64,000 nt of DNA from Yponomeuta sedellus (taxonomy: Eukaryota; Arthropoda; Insecta; Lepidoptera; Yponomeutidae). A program made the position numbers and the translations under genes. Shown here piece after piece: positions 2,861 through 64,000 of the stretch (positions are counted from its first letter, which is position 1; every line of letters starts with the position of its first letter). The DNA is taken from contig OW203734.1 in NCBI GenBank assembly GCA_934045075.1, forward strand, positions 8,715,516 to 8,779,515. The letters run 5' to 3'. The notes beneath the pieces are model-generated. The model had not been told where the DNA came from, did not search any database, and saw only the letters and a program-made list of their open reading frames with translations.

Positions 2861-3124
2861 AGCTTGTCGCACAGGATCAAAATGTTAGATTTGGGTCCCA
2901 CCGGGAGAAAATTACTCACGATACATACATAGTCATAAGTATACCTACTGCTAAAGTTCTAATTGCGAGTGGTTTTAAGAGCGCTTAATAACTTTATTAG
3001 GTAGTTAGTGCTCGTTACCCGAGGTTTTTGTTATAAATTTTAATTTAGTTTTTTTTTATTTCAATACTTTTTCTCTTATGTACTTATATTTTATTTATTT
3101 AGAACACAAAACAGGTTACAGACA

Positions 3125-3550
3125 TTATACTATTTTTATTTTTAATGCACTAACCCGTGCTAAGGACAATTTTAAAAAAACCTATTTAGAGGCTAAAAAT
3201 TCCACCCATGCCGGGATTCGAACCCGCAACCTCTGGCTATCCGTGCCAGCGCTCTATCCAACTGAGCCAATGGGCGACTCACCGGCATCAGTGAAATTTC
3301 GAACCTCTTTACACTATTCTCTGTATTACGTACAGGCAGCGACATCTGGCTGAAGTAGATTGCATCACTTACAACCCCGACTACCTACTTTGCAGTTAGG
3401 TTTTTACATCGGAAAGGCTACAGCGATATCATTGCCGGTGAGTCGCCCATTGGCTCAGTTGGATAGAGCGCTGGCACGGAGAGCCAGAGGTTGCGGGTTC
3501 GAATCCCGGCATGGGTGAATTTTTTAGCCTCTAAATAGGTTTTTAAAAAA
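3125..3550. repeat. LTE copy 4, two tRNA-like ends
   Basis: A minus-oriented tRNA-like segment (about 3205-3280) is followed by about 150 bp of body. A plus-oriented tRNA-like segment (about 3440-3520) comes next, so the tRNA-like parts face outward as long inverted repeats. The left end carries the 'ttaatgcactaacccgtgct' terminus. Confidence 0.75.
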
Positions 3551-4841: not shown

Positions 4842-4972
4842 TACCCAGGTCTTGGATGTTTACATGTTTGTGATGTCGTTGTTTCTGGTTCCCACGACAC
4901 AGGGTACCCTAGTGTGGGGCCAGAAGCAATGTATGTGCTTGTATGTAAATGTTATGTTATGTTATGTATAGT
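4842..4972 (+). repeat. SINE-G, 3' half
   Basis: It matches the body of complete SINE-G copies from 'ccaggtcttggatg' to the 'atgttatgttatgta' tail. The tRNA-like head is absent. Confidence 0.8.
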
Positions 4973-6229: not shown

Positions 6230-6860
6230 GTTTGTTCTTTTTATTTGTGAAATCCCTTTCTAGCTTTAAAAAACCTATTAAGAGGCTAAAAATTCCACCC
6301 ATGCCGGGATTCGAACCCGCGACCTCTGGCTATCCGTGCCAGCGCTCTTTCCAACTGAGCTAATGGGCGACTCACCGCATCAGTGAAATTTCGAACCTCT
6401 TTACAATATTCTCTGTATTACGTACAGGCAGCGACATCTGGCTGAAGTAATTTGCATCATTTGCAGCCCCGAGTACCTTCTTCGCAGTTAGGTTTTACAT
6501 CGGAATGATATCGCTGTACCCACATGATTATATTATTTTTAATGCACTAACCCGTGCTGAGGACAATTCCCTTTCTAGTATTTCTTTGTTTTTTATGTGT
6601 ATGTTAATTTTTATTTATTTCAGATTTATGTACCGTTTATGTATGTTATCAACTATAAAATAATATGTTGTCTAATATTGTTCAGTTGCGCCGACTACCC
6701 GTCATTCAGTTTCCGTTTTTTCTTTTCCATCAATGGTTGTCTGGAAGAAATTACTTTTAGTACTTAATAAGGCCGCCACTTGTACTGTGCTGTTATTTTT
6801 TAAGTCTCTTACGTAATCCCTGGTGTACATGCAATAAAGAATATTTTATCTATCTATCCA
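6230..6860 (+). repeat. LINE-C 3' end split by LTE
   Basis: A LINE 3' region reads 'ttgtctggaagaaatt', 'aaggccgccacttgtactg', 'ccctggtgtacatgcaataa' and a (TATC)n tail. The same sequence without an insertion is at 60110-60415 on the minus strand. Here it is interrupted by the LTE at 6264-6567. Confidence 0.75.
6264..6567 (-). mobile_element. LTE copy 5, full length with TSD
   Basis: This 304-bp insertion is flanked by an 11-bp direct repeat 'tccctttctag' (6253-6263 and 6568-6578). The uninterrupted site exists at about 60391-60401, so the boundaries are exact. On the minus strand the element runs 'attgtcctcagcacgggtta', then about 170 bp of unique body, then a tRNA-like segment (A box TAGCTCAGTTGG, B box GGTTCGAATCC), a T-run and 'ggttttttaaag'. 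The tRNA-like part is therefore at the 3' side. The anticodon-loop equivalent ACGGATA lacks the usual T33, so it is not a working tRNA. Confidence 0.9.
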
Positions 6861-7845: not shown

Positions 7846-8319
7846 AATATTCCTCATATGTTTAAAATTTACAAAGTGCATATAAAGTGCGGAATACCAT
7901 AGAAAAACCATCTGATGGAGGATGATTTTAATTATTTATATAGAATAAGGATGAACAGACGTGCCTTCGTGAACTGCACGCGCTACAACATAAATTGGTA
8001 CTGAATGGACAGTTTCAGATGCAGGTGATCAATCGCATCGCGTTCGTTAAAAGGACATGTCCGACGAAAATTGGATTGCAAAGAATCACGATTTAAATTC
8101 CCTTTTTATATGCTTCCAATAGCCAATTACCATTCATCACGATTTTATTGGATTTATCGCTGTAACTATACAGTGTTTTTCATGTTTATTAACAAATGAA
8201 GTAAACAAACAAGTCGTATCAGTCATGTCAGGCTCTGTTAGAAATCATATGCACCCATTAGTGCGCACACAAGACAAAACTTTCTTTGTGAAAGATGTTT
8301 TAATTGACATCTCATGTAT
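7846..8319. other. No recognised feature
   Basis: AT-rich, with no gene or repeat recognised. Confidence 0.4.
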
Positions 8320-8375
8320 CATACTATTTTTATTTTTAATGCCCAAACCCGTGCTAAGGTTTTTAAAATCTCATG
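8320..8375 (-). repeat. LTE terminal fragment
   Basis: Only the terminus 'actatttttatttttaatgc' and 'cccgtgctaagg' joined to 'tttttaaaa' remain. The body and tRNA-like part are lost. Confidence 0.6.
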
Positions 8376-18871: not shown

Positions 18872-19736
18872 GTAGCTAGTTTTATATGAGCCCATCTAAG
18901 GCGATAGCTTTGCTCACCTTTATCGGATACGACGCGGAAGACAGATATATAGTTCTCTAATTTATCCGACTGAGAAAACATAGAAGAGATTATTCTATCT
19001 GCAAACTAGTACCAGGGACTCAACCAGCCTTGTCGTCTTAACTGGGTAACTTGGTATTCCGGCCAACGGCCACCGCTACCTAAATTAGTCCGGCTCAAGA
19101 GTGTAGGAGAGAGATATGAATTGAACGGTCACCGTGGCTAGTACGTAGAGATGTAGAAGACAAAGAAGGAAGTAAAACTATCTAGGCAATCATAATACGA
19201 TTTTATTTTTATTTACATTGTATTAATTAACAATTAAATTCTATGTACATTTTTTTAATTTTATTTTATAAAGGAGGAAAAACAGAATCAACAACAAGCA
19301 CTTAAATACAGAAAACTAGTTAGCTTACTAAATTTTGTTAATTCCTAATCATTCCTCACCGCTAGATAGCGATAGTCTTGGAAGTAATTCGCGTTATTAT
19401 GGTATGAAGGTACAAAAATACCATTTAATAGTCTGAAAAGCCTAATTACACTACTTGCCATGTCCTCGTAATTGGGTGAATTTCCCGGAACTAAAAATTG
19501 CGTGGCACCAATGAAATTGGTAATAAAAGAGAAAGTGTTAATGTTCTAACATTTTTTACGGTTAGATGATATGGTAATCTATGTGTAGCACTAAACATTT
19601 TGTTAATAAGAATAATGGATACTCCAAAAAAAAAAATTAAATCCCGAAATCTTTCATTGCCATGTTTGTCCGCACGTCACCTTGTTGTGTATTATTCTTC
19701 ATTGATAAACATCTATTGGTTCTTTGTACTAAAAAT
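18872..19736. other. No recognised feature
   Basis: AT-rich sequence without a supported gene or repeat. Confidence 0.4.
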
Positions 19737-20175
19737 TGCATCACTTACAGCCCAGACTACCTACTTTGTAGTTAGTTTGGTAGAGCACTGGCACGGATAG
19801 CCAGAGGTTGCGGGTTCGAATCCCGGCATGGGTGAAATTTTTAGCCTCTAAATAGGTTTTTAAATTTGTCCTTAGCACGGGTAAGTGCATTAAAAATAAA
19901 AATAGTATAATCATGTGGGTACAGTGATATCGTTCCGATGTAAAACCTAACTGCAAAGTAGGTAGTCGGGGCTGTAAGTGATGCAATTTGCTTAAGCCAG
20001 ATGTCGCTGCCTGTACGTAATACAGAGAATAGTGTAAAGAGGTTCGAAATTTCACTGATGCCGGTGAGTCGCCCATTGGCTCAATTGGTAGAGCACTGGC
20101 ACGGATAACCAGAGGTTGCGGGTTCGAATCCCGGCATGGGTGAAATTTTTAGCCTCTAAATAGGTTTTTTAAATA
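19737..20175 (+). repeat. LTE copies 6-7 in tandem
   Basis: Two tRNA-like segments in the same direction start their 'tagagcactgg' word at 19781 and 20089, a 308-bp period. Between them lies one full LTE unit: terminus, body and tRNA-like part. The left edge at 19737-19775 is a short inverted piece of body. Both tRNA-like parts are followed by 'gggtgaaatttttag'. Confidence 0.85.
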
Positions 20176-24552: not shown

Positions 24553-24775
24553 TTTAAAAACCTATTTAGAGGCTAAAAATTTCACCCATGCCGGGATTTG
24601 AACCCGCAACCTCTGGCTATCCGTACCAGTACTGGTACGTATCTGGTACGGATAGCCAGAGGTTGCGGGTTCGAATCCCGGCATGGGTGAAATTTTTAGC
24701 CTCTAAATAGGTTTTTAAATTTGTTCCTTAGCACGGGTTAGTGCATTAAAAATAAAAAAAAATAGTGTAATATAT
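24553..24775. repeat. LTE copy 8, palindromic
   Basis: A minus-oriented tRNA-like segment meets a plus-oriented one near 24640, within 'ccagtactggtacgtatctg'. This gives arms of about 75 bp. The right side ends in the 'cacgggttagtgcattaaaa' terminus. The body is absent. Confidence 0.8.
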
Positions 24776-25842: not shown

Positions 25843-25964
25843 AAGGAATTTCCTGTAAAGTGTCTAATAACATTGTTCTAGCCGTCCCCTCCGATTTTGT
25901 TCGCATGGGATTTTAATTTTATTTTAAGTTACGGAAAGACTAACAGCTATTACAAGTTTATATT

Positions 25965-26190
25965 CTTTTTATTGCACTAACCCGTGCTAAGGAAAATTTT
26001 AAAAAACCTATTTTAGAGGCTAAAAATTCCACCCATACCGGGATTTGAACCCGTGACCTCTTCTTCCAACTGAGCTAATAGGCGACTCACCGGCATCAGT
26101 GAAATTTCGAACCTCTTTACAATACTCTGTATTACGTACTGAATCCCGGCATGGGTGGAATTGTTAGCCTCTAAATAGGTTTTTTAAAAA
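25965..26190. repeat. LTE copy 9, rearranged
   Basis: The left terminus and a decayed minus-oriented tRNA-like part are joined to a short body piece and then to a plus-oriented 'gaatcccggcatgggtgg' end. The tRNA-like segment has lost its anticodon arm. Confidence 0.7.
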
Positions 26191-35189: not shown

Positions 35190-35630
35190 TTTTTAAAAAA
35201 CCTATTTAGAGGCTAAAATTCCAACCATGCCGGGATTCGAACCCTCGACCTCTGGCTATCCGTGCCACCGCTCTATCCAACTGAGCTAATGGGTGACTCA
35301 CCGGCATCAGTGAAATTTCGAACCTCTTTACACTATTCTCTGTATTATGTACAGGCAGCGACATCTGGCTGAAGTAGATTGCATCACTTACAGCCCCGAC
35401 TACCTACTTTGTAGTTAGGTTTTTACATCGGAATGATATCGCTGTACCCACATGATTATACTATTTTTATTTTTAATGCATTTTTTATTTTTAGTTGGAT
35501 AGAGCGCTGGCACGGATAGCCAGAGGTCGCGGGTTCGAATCCCGGCATGGGTGGAATTTTTAGCCTCTAAATAGGTTTTTAAAAATTGTCCTTAGCACGG
35601 GTTAGTGCATTTAAATAAAAATAGTATAAG
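35190..35630. repeat. LTE copy 10, two tRNA-like ends
   Basis: A full-length minus-oriented LTE (35190-35485) is followed directly by a plus-oriented tRNA-like part (35493-35570) and the terminus. The outer parts form inverted repeats of about 100 bp. Confidence 0.8.
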
Positions 35631-35631
35631 C

Positions 35632-35815
35632 ATCTCATTTTGTTATAATCGTTGAGCTGAAAACAAAATGAGATACTGTATGTTACTGTATTTACGCTGT
35701 TCTGTAAATACAGTAACATACAGTACTGTATAATTTTCCTGTTCACCTCGACATTGGCAACAACCTGGCAAAAATATGTACGATAGTAAACCGTACACAT
35801 TTCTGCCAGGTGTTT
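35632..35815. repeat. Cluster of three hairpins
   Basis: A 13-bp inverted pair lies at 35632-35644 and 35662-35674. A perfect 22-bp hairpin follows (35674-35695 and 35704-35725, 8-base loop). An imperfect ~20-bp hairpin ('acctggcaaaaat' / 'atttctgccaggt') lies at about 35764-35812. The cluster starts right at the end of the LTE. Confidence 0.85.
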
Positions 35816-35854
35816 GATGCTCGTGCAGTCACTTAGTATTTGATAAAATAAAGT

Positions 35855-36078
35855 TGTACTATTTTTATTTTTAATGCACTAACCCGTGCTAAGGAACAAA
35901 TTTAAAAACCTATTTAGAGGCTCAAAATTTCACCCATGCCGGGATTCGAACCCGCAACCTCTGGCTATCCGTACCAGCGCTCTCTCAATTGGTAGAGCGC
36001 TGGCACGGATAGCCAGAGGTTGCGGGTTCGAATCCCGGCATGGGTGAAATTTTTAGCCTCTAAATAGGTTTTTAAATT
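35855..36078. repeat. LTE copy 11, palindromic
   Basis: A minus-oriented terminus and tRNA-like part join a plus-oriented tRNA-like part at about 35985-35995. The arms are about 85 bp and nearly identical. The body is absent. Confidence 0.85.
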
Positions 36079-36171: not shown

Positions 36172-36385
36172 ATTTAACATAACATAACATTTACATACAG
36201 GCACATACATTGCTTCTGGCCCCACACTAGGATACCCTGTGTCGTGGGAACCAGAAACAACGACATCACAAACATGTAAACATCCAAGACCTGGACTTTT
36301 TTTTTTGTTTCCAGCCGGGATTCGAACCCGGGACCTCTTGCATGGTAGGCAGACGCGCTACTGCTACGCCACAGAGGTCGTCTTA
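36172..36385 (-). repeat. SINE-G, full length
   Basis: It is a complete reverse-strand copy with tail 'aacataacataacatt' at the left. The tRNA-Gly-like head (36310-36385) has an intact B box. Confidence 0.9.
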
Positions 36386-42835: not shown

Positions 42836-43165
42836 ATTTAAAAACCTATTTAGAGGCTAAAAATTTCACCCATGCCGGGATTCGAACCCGCAACCTCTGG
42901 CTATCCGTACCAGCGCTCTACCAATTGAGCCAATGGGCGACTCACGGCATCAGTGAAATTTGGAACCTCTTTACAATATTCTCTGTATTACGTACAGGCA
43001 GCGACATCTGACTTGCAAGCAAATTGCATTACTTACAGCCCCGACTACCTACTTTGCATTTAGGTTTTAACATCGGAACGATATCACTGTACTCACATGA
43101 TTACACTATTTTTATTTTTAATGCACTAACCCGTGCTAAGGAACAAATTTAAAAACCTATTTACT
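42836..43165 (-). repeat. LTE copy 12, full length plus
   Basis: It begins with the 3' terminus 'aaaacctatttagaggctaa' and runs through the tRNA-like part, body and 5' terminus. It continues into a second 'aaatttaaaaacctattta', so an incomplete tandem unit follows. Confidence 0.85.
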
Positions 43166-46747: not shown

Positions 46748-46809
46748 CTCTCATGAAATTCCTTCCATTTCCATGAATTGGAAAATTATAGAACAAAAAA
46801 AAATAAATA

Positions 46810-47018
46810 TAATTATTTTTAATGCACTAACCCGTGCTAAGGACAATTTTAAAAACCTATTTAGAGGCTAAAAACGTAATACAGAGAATATTGTAAAGAG
46901 GTTCGAAATTTCTTTGATGCCGGTGAGTCGCCCATTAGCACGGATAGCCAGATGTCGCGGGTTTGAATCCCGACATGGGTGGAATTTTAGGCCTCTAAAT
47001 ATGTTTTAAAAAAAATTG
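46810..47018 (+). repeat. LTE copy 13, rearranged
   Basis: An inverted terminus (46812-46875) is joined to plus-oriented body at 'acgtaatacagag', then to a tRNA-like part that lacks its D arm. The layout equals copy 2. Confidence 0.75.
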
Positions 47019-50031: not shown

Positions 50032-50388
50032 TTACAAAAATTTACACAACATCATGAAGTCTATTTAACGAAACTGTATATTGTGCTTTACATTTTAAAC
50101 CTTATGCAAGTGTGCAAGGATTTCCATTTATCACTCGGAATTTAATATGGACTTTATGAGTCTAACATTGCAATAACCTGCGGTTACGTCGTGTTTGCAA
50201 GCATACCCGTAGTCTATACCTATGCATACACATTAAAGTTGTATGAAACTTAATGAATGAGTTATGCGTATTGAATAGCCGCAACTATGGCGTAACGAAA
50301 TACGCAAATATGAATAAATCTTACTATGCAGGTGACTTTGGAATTGCAAATACTCACATGAGCTGAACATTTTTATGTCTTTGAAAAC
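50032..50388. other. No recognised feature
   Basis: AT-rich sequence. Confidence 0.4.
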
Positions 50389-50925
50389 CTATTTAGAGGC
50401 TAAAAATTTCACCCATGCCGGGATTCGAACCCGCAACCTCTGGCTATCACTATACCCACATGATTATACTATTTTTATTTTTAATGCACTAACCCGTGCT
50501 AAGGACAAATTTAAAAACCTATTTAGAGGCTAAAAATTTCACCCATGCCGGGATTCGAACCCGCAACCTCTGGCTATCCGTGCCAGCGCTCTACCAATTG
50601 AGCCAATGGGCGACACACACCCGATATCGTTCCGATGTAAAACCTAACTGCAAAGTAGGTAGTCGGGGCTGTAAGTGATGCAATTTGCTTAAACTAGATG
50701 TCGCTGCCTGTACGTAATACAGAGAATAGTGTAAAGAGGTTCGAAATTTCACTGATGCCGGTGTGTCGCCCATTGGCTCAATTGGTAGAGCGCTGGCACG
50801 GATAGCCAGAGATTGCGGGTTCGAATCCCGGCATGGGTGAAATTTTTAGCCTCTAAATAGGTTTTTAAATTTGTCCTTAGCACGGGTTAGTGCATTAAAA
50901 ATAAAAATAGTATAATTTTTATGTC
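50389..50925. repeat. LTE copies 14-15, cluster
   Basis: A minus-oriented tRNA-like part with a truncated body (50389-50515) is followed by a second minus-oriented tRNA-like part (50516-50615). A plus-oriented body and tRNA-like part complete the cluster (about 50620-50925). Tandem and inverted joins occur together, and the outer termini are complementary over more than 100 bp. Confidence 0.85.
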
Positions 50926-52940: not shown

Positions 52941-53502
52941 TATTAAGAATGTTGTACAACGAAAGTTTTAATCTAATACAAAATTTTACACTATTAAAAA
53001 GTTTTAGTTAACTCCAAAGGCTTGTTACGAAATCAGTTTTGTGTAATAATTTTATTTATTTTGAAAAGTAAACTCCACCAAATCAGCTTAAATATTACCG
53101 ATTAATGAATAAACAGCTCTACAAAAGCATTTAGGCAACACAATAGATTTAGGTCAACGCTTCCATTTCACACAATCAAAGGCTCCAAATAATGACTTTC
53201 GAATCGATAGACCCGCCAAATCATTATAATTAAAAGCACTAGCCTCATACACTAGCTAAAAGCACTAACCTATACATAACATCAAGTATAAATAACCCAC
53301 TCGCGCGGTAACCACGCTTAGTTATTAGACCCATTTATTCTCTATTTGAGAGAAGTTTTGTGACCTGCCGTGAGACTACACAGGCTGCTTATTATAACAA
53401 AGGGCTCATTCTTTGATATTTAAAACAGGAATATTGCCGCAAGTTGAGTTAAATCATCTAGAAAAGGCTATGTTAGCAATTTCTTGCTTACGTAACAAAA
53501 TG
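52941..53502. other. No recognised gene
   Basis: AT-rich. A decayed SINE-E end ('atttgagagaagttttgtga') lies near 53340-53385. Confidence 0.4.
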
Positions 53503-54230
<728 letters not shown>

Positions 54231-54243
54231 ATATTCTTTATTA

Positions 54244-54710
54244 ATGTAGAGCGGTGGCAGAGGAGCGGTAAAACAGCCTCACTTTCGGGAGGCGTAGGTT
54301 CGAACCCCGGCGCATGTACCAACGACTCGCTTTCTAAGTTAAGTAAATTTGTCAATTTGTAGAAGCAATACCAACCGCAACTTAAGGAAAACATCCAAAA
54401 GGAATCTGAGTATCTCAGGTGTTACTCAGATTATCAGCGCTTCAAATTGCCAATCCACGGTGAGCACGTCGTCATCATCCTCAGGTTACACTAGTCCACT
54501 GCTGGACATAGCCCTCCCCTAATGAATGCCACAGCGCGCCGCATCCAGCATCTGCGTGCAGTTTTTCGCAAATCATCCCACCTAGACAGAGGGCGTCCTA
54601 CACTACGTTTGCCGAGTTGCGGTGAGCATGCGTGATAGTAAATTCCATACTCTCTCTCGTAGAGAAGGTCTGTACCCGAAAAAGAGACATATATAGACTA
54701 CTGAAAAAGT
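54244..54710 (+). repeat. SINE-E split by LINE-B insertion
   Basis: The tRNA-like head (54255-54320, B box 'aggttcgaacccc'), core and 'ccaatccacggtgagcacg' are interrupted at 54468. The sequence resumes at 54620 with 'cggtgagcatg' and the 'actctctctcgtagagaagg' end. Confidence 0.8.
54469..54619 (-). mobile_element. LINE-B 3' fragment with 11-bp TSD
   Basis: A 151-bp 5'-truncated LINE-B sits between 'cggtgagcacg' (54458-54468) and 'cggtgagcatg' (54620-54630). The minus strand codes for RSVGRPLSRWDDLRKTARRC, then, after a frame change, LGEGYVQQWTS and a stop, with a GATGATGACGA tail. The target duplication shows insertion by target-primed reverse transcription. Confidence 0.85.
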
Positions 54711-60109: not shown

Positions 60110-60415
60110 TATAGAATATTATTTATTGCATGTACACCAGGGATTACATAAGAAACTTAAAAAATAACAGTACAGTACAAGTGGCGGCCTTATTACTAAA
60201 ACTTATTTCTTCCAGACAACCATTGACGGAAGAGAAGAAACGGAAACTGCATGACGGGTAGTCGGCGCAACTAAACAATATTAGACCACATATTATTTTA
60301 TAGTTACACATACATTTACGGTACATAAATAAATATAAACATACCTTCACAAAAAAAACATAGGACATGAACGCAAAATATATCTACATAATACTAGAAA
60401 GGGATTTCACAAATA
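60110..60415 (-). repeat. LINE-C 3' end (empty site for LTE)
   Basis: On the minus strand it is collinear with 6230-6860 but has no LTE. It reads from 'gtgaaatccctttctagtat' near 60391-60410 through 'ttgtctggaagaaataag', 'aaggccgccacttgtact' and 'ccctggtgtacatgcaataa'. Confidence 0.8.
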
Positions 60416-61705: not shown

Positions 61706-61855
61706 TACAGGCAGCGACATGTGGCTAAAGTGCGGACGCGTGGCTACGGTTAGCCACGGGTTCGAGTCCCGGCATGGGCGGAATTTTTAGCCTCTAAATA
61801 GGTTTTTAAAAATTATCCTCAGCACGGCTTAGTGCAACAAAAAGAATATAATATC
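61706..61855 (+). repeat. LTE copy, partial
   Basis: A short body piece joins a tRNA-like part whose anticodon arm is replaced by the 8-bp hairpin 'cgtggctacggttagccacg'. The B box is intact, and the terminus 'cagcacggcttagtgcaac' follows. Confidence 0.7.
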
Positions 61856-62170
61856 ATTTATTTATGCAAAACCATTAAACGAGTAACTGCGTACGAGTAT
61901 CTACAGCTCTGTCTAAGGAACTCGAGATCCCGGTTTTATCTGGATGATAAATATTTTCCCCTTTCCCTTAAGAAAATGGTATTTGCTTTGAAAAGTTTTA
62001 TAGTGATTTATAAGATGAGTGTGATAAAGGAAAAAATCCGGACTGTAATGACTGTAATCAATAAATTATACGATGAATGTAATATTACTTATAAATTTAT
62101 ATATAATGATACACTTAACGGGTCAAATCACGACTTTCTAGTTGATGAAAACAACTTAATCTTATTTTAA
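61856..62170 (+). CDS. Unrecognised open frame, ~100 codons
   Basis: The open frame continues out of the preceding LTE tail. Its only upstream start-like codon is a GTG inside that element, so the original start is missing or was displaced by the insertion. The native part runs from about 61862 to the TAA at 62168-62170. Visible blocks are RFYLDDKYFPLSLKKMVF, then ALKSFIVIYKMSVIKEKIRT, then VMTVINKLYDECNITYKF, and the C-terminus VDENNLILF. It is rich in Lys, Ile and Tyr, shows no transmembrane segment or zinc finger, and has an alternating basic-hydrophobic helix pattern. I do not recognise the family. It may be a remnant of a mobile element, an integrated virus-like gene or a host exon. Confidence 0.35.
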   Translation: MYLCKTIKRVTAYEYLQLCLRNSRSRFYLDDKYFPLSLKKMVFALKSFIVIYKMSVIKEKIRTVMTVINKLYDECNITYKFIYNDTLNGSNHDFLVDENNLILF

Positions 62171-62515: not shown

Positions 62516-62982
62516 AAGATATATGAAAGACATAGAGTAATTGAATACCTTATAAAATAAGTTCAAAAGTAAGTTGCCTTTCATGTAAGTACCTATTAAC
62601 ATTTAGTGAGTCTTTGGATGTATAGAATACGTATGTAGCTGTAAAGAAATCAGATTTTTACTATTTTTGATTTATTACTTTGTGGGCTCCCGCGTATCGG
62701 CACCGTGCAGGGTAGTCCCATTTCTGTATAATCCTCTAATATACTGAGTAGAACTGACTTGCATTCCTAGCGAGCAACTTTGCCCCCTAAAGTCCCAATA
62801 TAAGCTCCAGGTTGGTAAATATTTCGTGAGGAAATAAATTATTCATGCAGTTTAAGTACTAACAACGGGAAGACAAAGCAAGAATAGCTTGCATATCATC
62901 CGAGAGAGAGAGCTTGAAAACGTAAATGAAGTCACAGAAGGGAATGCTACAGCAGTTTCAGTCCCAAACTAAATACAAATTT
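62516..62982. other. No recognised feature
   Basis: AT-rich sequence. Confidence 0.4.
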
Positions 62983-63372
62983 GAATGAATGAATGAACGA
63001 ACGAACGAACGAACGAACGAACGAACGAACGAACGAACGAACGAACGAACGAACGAACGAACGAACAAACGAACGAACGAACGAGCGAACGAACGAACGA
63101 AAGAAAAGACGGACGGACGGATGACGAACGAACGAACGAACGAACGAACGAACGAACGAACGAACGAACGAACGAACGAACGAACGAACGAACGAACGAA
63201 CGAACGAACGAACGAACGGACGGACGAACGAACGAACGAACGAACGAACGAACGAACGAACGAACGAACGAACGAACGAACGAACGAACGAACGAACGAA
63301 CGAACGAACGAACGAACGAAAGAACGAACGAACGAACGAACGAACGAACGAACGAACGAATAAATGAATGAA
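62983..63372. repeat. (GAAC)n microsatellite, ~390 bp
   Basis: The tetranucleotide tract has short variant blocks: AAAC near 63066, GGAC at 63110-63120 and 63218-63225, and GAAT at both ends. It continues with degenerate units to about 63470. Long open frames on both strands (Asn-Glu-Arg-Thr; Arg-Ser-Phe-Val) are products of the 4-bp period. Confidence 0.95.
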
Positions 63373-63471
63373 TGATTGAATGAATGAATTACTGAATGAA
63401 GGAGCGAACGAACGAAGAAACAAACGAACAAATGAACTGAAGAACGCACGAATGAACGGACGAACAAACAA

Positions 63472-63600
63472 ATGAAGGTTTGATAATGAAGGTTTTGGAA
63501 GGTTTGATAATGAAGGTTTTGGAAGGTTTGTCAGGGTTGTGGTAAGTAGCAAACCCTGGCCTCTGACTACTCCTTCGGGGTGCAGGCGTGAGTTTATCCA
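63472..63600 (+). repeat. Short direct repeats and LINE-A-like tail
   Basis: Three near-identical blocks of 'gaaggtttgataatgaaggt' type (about 21-30 bp) are followed by 'gttgtggtaagtagcaaacc' and 'ggtgcaggcgtgagtttat'. This resembles the LINE-A end 'cgtggcaagtggcag...acaggcgtgaggttat'. Confidence 0.5.
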
Positions 63601-64000
63601 TATACCCTTATATAGAAATCTGCACAGCTCGGCAATTGGTCGCACAAGTCTAAGAAGTACGCGACGGTTTGTCTAAATTAACTATGTGGGTTAGTACTAC
63701 TAAACGAGATTAGGGCGAAAAGAAAAATTCCATGGGCATTTAAAACAGGAATAAACCAAATTCAGTTCATTTGGTTTTTTATTCTTGTCAAAATATACCA
63801 AAAATGTTTTATTTGTGTGTAAATGTTACACATTCGTCTTATAAAAACTGGACTGTTTTTAGAAACGTTCTCGTATACTAAAAAACGAACAAATTGTTTC
63901 TTTTTATAAAACTTAAGTTATTTATTATTTATTTTTATTTTTTACTTTGTGATTACCTCTTTTTCTTATGAAATCTTCACAGCAGATTATTTTAATCGGT
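63601..64000. other. No recognised feature
   Basis: AT-rich sequence up to the window end. Confidence 0.4.

Follow-up and report, generated by a model that had tools for sequence, protein, structure and literature searches.

A 304-bp insertion, here called Q, lies at 6264-6567 of the 64-kb stretch of DNA that was analysed (hereafter the window), and raises the question of how a short mobile element with a tRNA-like segment towards its 3' side might be copied. The original prediction had regarded Q as an element bounded by an 11-bp repeat, with an uninterrupted LINE copy elsewhere in the window as its empty site, and as something other than an ordinary tRNA-headed SINE dependent on a LINE; how the ~200 bp upstream of the tRNA come to be copied was left as a puzzle. 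Comparisons of Q with the window, with the surrounding genome and with retroelements of other kinds make it very probable that the element is a non-autonomous Penelope-like element (PLE) equipped with a tRNA-like segment; it would amount to a tRNA-type SINE whose partner is a PLE and not a LINE.

Boundaries of the insertion and the underlying unit

The termini of Q proved genuine. It sits between exact copies of tccctttctag at 6253-6263 and 6568-6578, a scripted search for target-site duplications (TSDs) recovered the same repeat, and the related LINE, whose end lies near 60410 on the minus strand and matches the left flank of Q in sequence comparison, reads gtgaaatccctttctagtatt there uninterrupted, just as had been claimed for this LINE-C copy. 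The tRNA sense of Q runs along the minus strand, and in this sense its parts follow each other as T, a Penelope-like tail region (6532-6567), body (6371-6531), tRNA-like segment (6294-6370) and link (6264-6293), the last ending in TTTTTTAAA(G). The placement of the tRNA-like part at the 3' side is thereby borne out. Its presence is likewise confirmed by ARAGORN, which calls a tRNA at 6294-6370 on the minus strand, and by the Rfam tRNA model (RF00005), which scores it at 37.8 bits against a cut-off of 29.

A comparison of Q with the window uncovered 14 other places, making it one of 15 related insertions, and with one of these (E) as reference a 308-bp unit was built in which the tRNA-like segment occupies positions 1-75, the link 76-102, T 103-149 and the body 150-308. 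The joints between link and T, T and body, and body and tRNA are each present in several copies, and hence the template must be tandem or circular. The earlier notion that the boundaries of Q define the unit has to be given up: Q is one cut from a tandem or circular 308-bp unit, a single arm that reads from unit 102, the end without a tail, back to 104, or about one full unit, with its T covering unit 103 to about 140 and its body about 150-308. The order of parts in Q is accordingly not that of the unit as such, being one permutation of many; in other copies the inner ends lie elsewhere, and a second arm in inverted orientation is usual.

A search of the 657-Mb genome from which the window comes, with Q as the query, gave 2035 first-look candidates, with 40 scored; the 39 further copies that were sampled are the best matches to Q and are biased towards long arms. 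Arms that exceed one unit were seen in E (396 nt) and J (328 bp) in the window, and in the genomic copy L078, whose only arm measures 746 nt (2.4 units) and runs from its T end back to unit 1, the start of the tRNA; adjacent units of this arm are 97% identical. Together with the 308-bp unit, such arms are features that would also fit a metazoan retrozyme, i.e. a self-cleaving circular RNA of ~300 nt that is reverse-transcribed around the circle. However, such arms are also explained by tandem transcripts from genomic copies that lie in tandem, and Rfam searches with thresholds of E<1 for the window and E<10 for copy E matched neither a hammerhead nor any other ribozyme, although minimal or decayed forms could be missed by them. 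We therefore hold a retrozyme to be very improbable, and a circular template could be added to the explanation by a PLE rather than replace it.

Outer ends, target-site duplications and pairing of arms

The window insertions, a set that was not selected, consist of one or two arms, with the 3' ends of the tRNA sense facing outward. Two arms are present in 11 of the 15, and all 11 are mixed-ended, one arm having its outer end at unit 101-107 (the 102-arm) and the other at 137-152 (the tail arm). Given with their arms in unit positions, they are A at 119-324 (102-arm 101<-258, tail arm 84->142; TSD GTTTCAGTTC with one mismatch), B at 614-855 (tail arm 152<-79, 102-arm 246->106; TSD ATATGATAAATAT), C at 1039-1233 (102-arm 107<-39, tail arm 26->149; TSD TTAAATCACAT), D at 3124-3547 (tail arm 149<-171, 102-arm 297->102; TSD AGGTTACAGACAT with one mismatch), a minimal insertion at 8318-8367, F at 24553-24758 (102-arm 102<-22, tail arm 26->140), G at 25963-26187 (tail arm 137<-251, 102-arm 56->102; TSD AGCTATTACAAG), H at 35193-35633 (102-arm 102<-121, which is nearly the whole unit, and tail arm 19->152; TSD GCATCTCATTTT), I at 35854-36078 (tail arm 148<-12, 102-arm 10->104), K at 46808-47011 (tail arm 142<-76, 102-arm 253->102; an unconvincing TSD within an A-run) and L at 50380-50916 (102-arm with an internal jump 34|167 and continuing to 302, tail arm 164->149; TSD ATTTTTATGTCTT). 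The minimal insertion, which has neither tRNA nor body, joins a tail arm (149<-108) to the last ten bases of the link, GGTTTTTAAA, within the TSD ATCTCATG(T/A)ATC; this link piece, and with it the second end of the copy, was recognised by eye.

The other four window insertions are Q, J, E and M. Q and J (42836-43163, minus strand) are single arms with an outer end at 102-103, the arm of J passing one unit to reach 87 inside the TSD AAGTACTTTATTA. E (19733-20172, plus strand) has one end at 102, its 102-arm leading from unit 15 through a whole unit to 102 within a weaker TSD, ATAAACAT, and its far end being a 46-bp inverted piece of body (227<-182). M (61706-61857) has one end at 149, that of a tail arm (49->149), and its other end lies in a short inverted piece of body (253<-229); no TSD was found for it.

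In the genome sample, 20 of the 39 copies fall into two or more pieces. Thirteen of these 20 are mixed-ended, three (L042, L059 and L060) appear to have the 102 end on both sides, with TSD scores of 5-7, and four (L045, L063, L064 and L065) fit neither end pattern; when the multi-piece copies with a TSD score of at least 9 are considered, nine of nine are mixed-ended. Single-piece copies end at the 102 side (98-109) in 11 of 19 cases and at the T side (123-149) in eight, L071 having been judged from L078. Across window and genome, the outer ends fall either in the link (about unit 102) or where T ends (about 133-152), and inner or far ends are scattered; the family prefers two outer ends, not one.

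TSD scores of at least 9 were obtained for 13 of the 15 window insertions, against 1.85% of 2000 random coordinate pairs, with E (8) and M (5) falling below; as the repeat of K is a low-complexity A-run, 12 of the TSDs are convincing. The two arms of one insertion belong together. Over the tRNA and link, arms within an insertion differ by 4.1%, against a mean of 6.8% for re-paired arms; with seven insertions the true pairing alone of 5040 permutations reaches the observed value, and with ten insertions a fraction of 0.00025 of 20000 random pairings matches the observed likeness.

These patterns have to be weighed against an ordinary LINE-dependent tRNA SINE of the order tRNA-link-T, with an A-rich 3' end, whose inversions would arise by twin priming and whose tandem dimers would mimic a permutation. 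Insertions A, B and K look like textbook cases of this, with arms that almost do not overlap, the end of T is indeed A-rich, the eight T-side ends among the single-piece genome copies are in keeping with it, and TSDs of about 8-14 bp, the variable length seen in this element, are usual for LINEs. Yet under twin priming the inner priming point should scatter, whereas it falls at unit 101-107 in every two-armed window copy, most window arm pairs overlap across the tRNA, and the single-armed Q and J, the long arm of E and the 11 single-piece genome copies noted above end at or close to 102. Two other tRNA-type SINE families of the window (at 6 and 3 places) show no inverted arms. Moreover, the tRNA promoter does not stand at the 5' end of the insertions, the far ends being scattered, and two preferred outer ends are found instead of a single 3' end. 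Had most copies run from the tRNA start to a ttagtgcattaaaa tail, an ordinary SINE would be indicated, but this is not the arrangement encountered. We judge a twin-primed SINE to be unlikely, in support of the earlier view that Q is not of the ordinary tRNA-headed, LINE-dependent kind.

Many copies start and finish with link-tRNA parts in inverted orientation, and these parts could be read as the terminal inverted repeats of a palindromic DNA transposon, whether a MITE or a foldback element. The variation in TSD length from about 8 to 14 bp speaks against this, as do the tail at one end only, which leaves the ends asymmetric, the inner joints, which vary among the window insertions, and the presence of single-armed and multi-unit copies. 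An origin as a DNA transposon appears highly unlikely on these grounds.

The tRNA-like segment and transcription

The consensus of the tRNA-like part folds into a cloverleaf-like structure and is situated directly upstream of the putative start sites of reverse transcription. At the sequence level, internal pol III boxes are present as in a LINE-dependent tRNA SINE: among 43 near-full units an A box was detected in 38, a B box in 32 and both in 30. The tRNA-like part may be a promoter, a structural handle or a leftover. The proposal of a recognition tag at the tRNA-like end is supported in that the sequence directly after the tRNA does look like a recognition site.

A pol III transcript of the tRNA was considered as the usual template and rejected. 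The arms of E and L078 cross several runs of five T, and the consensus unit has such runs at 76-80 and 95-99, both of them upstream of both putative start sites; an RNA ending at either run would contain neither start site in full.

Resemblance of the T region to the tail of a Penelope-like element

An approximate PLE consensus query retrieved 4961 PLE proteins at E-values up to 1e-20, and a search of the window's genome with one of them, from Papilio machaon (P0103), gave 63 scored places of 3707 candidates. One abundant PLE family of this genome, PLE-1, has open frames of 791 codons and includes a tandem array of identical 2705-bp units. Its outer ends form two clusters with 35 bp between them, one at the start of the ORF and one 12 codons in, with the exception of a few loci that end elsewhere (e.g. 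L022 and L025). All six PLE-1 insertions with both ends known are mixed-ended, and their TSDs measure 10-14 bp. One of these six, a miniature two-armed insertion (L109, G000:C4:19991300-19992500), lies within a copy of the tRNA element, and its empty site is known because the host sequence is such a copy; its TSD of 12-13 bp around CTATTCTCTGTA was read by eye. In a second family, PLE-2 (L009), match boundaries occur at query positions 137-138 and 178, 40 bp apart, with an ATG at 146, and a palindrome blurs the first of them.

The PLE-1 tail consists of the first 12 codons of the ORF. The consensus of T, ATTGTCCTTAGCACGGGTTAGTGCATTAAAAATAATATAATC, was derived from 73 segments, of which 14 belong to the window and 71 are distinct, L071 being in overlap with L078; it aligns end to end with this tail at a score of 31, compared with 15.3 +/- 2.95 for shuffled sequences (0 of 5000). 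With ten flanking bases included the match has p = 0.0004, and when both strands of the PLE-1 unit were divided into 5410 overlapping windows, the tail matched T best. Translated in the frame of a lost start codon, T reads LSLARVSALKI, against MSTARVNLRKYY in PLE-1. Copy E alone, used as the query against PLE-1, gives a weaker result (p 0.002, with the tail as second-best region; p 0.028 for a longer stretch), and T matches the tail of PLE-2 weakly, at p 0.01, or 0.16 once flanking sequence is included. From these alignments, the sequence of the presumptive start region of reverse transcription appears to be common to T and the autonomous PLE-1. The end-to-end match and the occurrence of the same two ends in PLE-1 further argue against a twin-primed SINE, in a comparison that covered the PLEs of the genome.

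PLE-1 can be no more than a relative of the donor PLE. Searches able to show a PLE with a T identical to that of the element found none, the body and the tRNA-link part have no similarity to PLE-1, PLE-2 or the PLE-related frame L010 (see below), and the start of the body has no significant match (0.36) to the PLE ORF downstream of the tail. In IMG/VR, a P0103 pattern had 10 matches, none of which was confirmed, and a T pattern had none. That T might encode the PLE motif VLSxGLNFA was also considered and rejected, since the mapping of PLE-1 ends places the tail at the ORF start, upstream of the motif; a profile of 34 PLE N-termini, directed at a more internal part of the PLE protein, also gave no match.

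A proposed mechanism of insertion

We propose that a PLE protein acts on the RNA of the element. The template would be a transcript of one or more 308-nt units, probably a read-through or multimeric RNA, or a one-unit circle, and the PLE protein would bind it at the link-T region, which follows directly on the 3' side of the tRNA. Both target strands would be cut by the PLE endonuclease about 8-14 bp apart, and reverse transcription would start internally at two adjacent sites of the RNA, the first at unit 102, which corresponds to the position of the PLE-1 start codon, and the second where T ends, ~35-47 nt beyond it. Priming would be by one target strand at the first site and by the other strand at the second. 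Each cDNA would then run back a variable distance through the link, the tRNA, the body and further units until the enzyme stops, and the two cDNAs would be joined head to head. The product would be a V-shaped insert, flanked by a TSD, of which one end has the tail and the other lacks it. Q would be an insertion with the 102 arm alone, which reads almost exactly one unit.

Internal priming at two sites would explain why Q has one 102 end, why no 5' end is fixed, why the tail is one-sided and why the arms are as long as they are. Likewise, the copying of the ~200 bp upstream of the tRNA ceases to be a puzzle if the template is longer and reverse transcription has an internal start, downstream of the tRNA; from such a start it would run back through the tRNA, body and T, and sometimes through further units. 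Snap-back self-copying of one cDNA was rejected as the source of the inverted arms, because it would give the same end twice, as against the one 102 end and one tail end observed. Judged by sequence, the copying might in principle also be the work of a template-jumping LINE machinery.

Comparison with known systems and implications

The mechanism proposed here, with a PLE as the partner, can be set beside what has been described for PLEs themselves. According to Frangieh et al. (PMC11167929), the PLE protein cuts and extends both strands, reverse transcription starts at two adjacent internal sites of the RNA, the stretch between these sites is an optional 'tail' of 30-40 bp, and catalysis by the hammerhead ribozyme is dispensable for insertion in vitro. 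The passages of Arkhipova et al. (PMC3846280) that deal with PLE structure describe a typical insert as pLTR-ORF-pLTR with an adjacent inverted pLTR, mention head-to-head order and partial tandems, quote cases with TSDs of 8-10 bp and with a 31-bp tail at one inverted pLTR, and refer to action in trans on unrelated DNA flanked by pLTRs.

As portrayed in PMC11167929 and those passages of PMC3846280, canonical PLEs, such as Penelope of D. virilis, Poseidon PAc of Anolis and Pen of Adineta vaga, resemble the element in having two adjacent start sites (putative in the element), a one-sided tail, head-to-head inverted arms, partial tandems and short, variable TSDs. The element itself displays tail and no-tail ends, head-to-head arms with partial tandems, and TSDs of about 8-15 bp, those of K and M being unconvincing. 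It differs from canonical PLEs in that its unit is only 308 bp and has no ORF, in that no ribozyme was found at the thresholds given above, whereas a hammerhead in the pLTR is usual in autonomous PLEs, and in that a tRNA-like segment stands just upstream of the putative start sites, where canonical PLEs have a pLTR.

Among short elements, the short Penelope elements of heliconiine butterflies are also non-autonomous and from insects; the likeness is one of description only, as the passage concerned in PMC6685494 gives neither structure nor tRNA. The lepidopteran SINEs HaSE1 and HaSE2 are similarly short and have a tRNA-related region, but in the account of them in the relevant part of PMC3272025 this region belongs to the 5' structure and the 3' tail of HaSE1 resembles the LINE HaRTE1.1, whereas the element has PLE-type outer ends. 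Metazoan retrozymes, which the pertinent passages of PMC7761336 propose to be a kind of SINE, share the tandem organization, with units of about 150-300 bp, but have a self-cleaving ribozyme, of which none was found here; naming a partner is said there not to be possible for retrozymes, whereas a candidate partner type can be named for the element.

We also think it fairly probable that the element exemplifies a class of tRNA-bearing SINEs that parasitise PLEs, in which a tRNA-like fold lies directly upstream of a captured PLE start site, in the place of the pLTR of the PLE, and a multimeric or circular RNA template is read for more than one round. No tRNA-bearing or SINE-like element mobilised by a PLE was found in the open-licence PMC literature, and, as far as this literature was searched, a SINE family with a PLE as its assigned partner would be without precedent; the general view, stated in the abstracts of two papers (PMC8010984, PMC7245038), is that SINEs depend on LINEs. 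If the assignment is true, PLEs are a second kind of SINE partner beside LINEs. The very small size of the element makes each copy readable across both cDNA arms and the joint between them, and the family would offer a natural experiment on PLE integration, a poorly understood process, in which the rule of one no-tail and one tail strand is testable on many insertions. The element also hints at a compact recognition signal, for which the short link-T region, at well under 100 nt, may be sufficient. Annotation pipelines would probably misread its copies as broken or inverted tRNA SINEs.

Additional observations

Several further features were noted in the course of the searches. The tandem PLE-1 array (L028-L031, G000:C21:2523853-2533893) comprises four units of 2705 bp with 791-codon frames, and in the stretches retrieved these units match the reference unit at 100% identity; it is a very recent PLE array. 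Short PLE-2 copies (L082-L100) consist of the palindromic region (query about 44-138) and the next 40 bp, and some of them form head-to-head pairs. Another miniature PLE derivative is seen in L106 (G000:C29:2449700-2450450), which contains ~260-bp tandem repeats of the PLE-1 start region, i.e. the ORF start and roughly the first 70 codons; matches that neighbour this repeat type are also present at C16:4957581-4958647. At G000:C26:1240337 (L010 and L011) there is another frame related to PLEs, which lacks the N-terminal part, shares 67% identity with P0103 beyond about residue 204 and has inverted repeats nearby; it could be a domesticated, exon-split or truncated copy.

The window also carries a tRNA-Gly-like SINE family of ~210 bp, in a single orientation and of ordinary structure, at 4844, 12902, 27079, 30176, 36172-36382 and 47304. 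Long simple repeats, with open frames reading SIYL.. and NERT.., occupy its positions 53457-54421 and 62950-63672.
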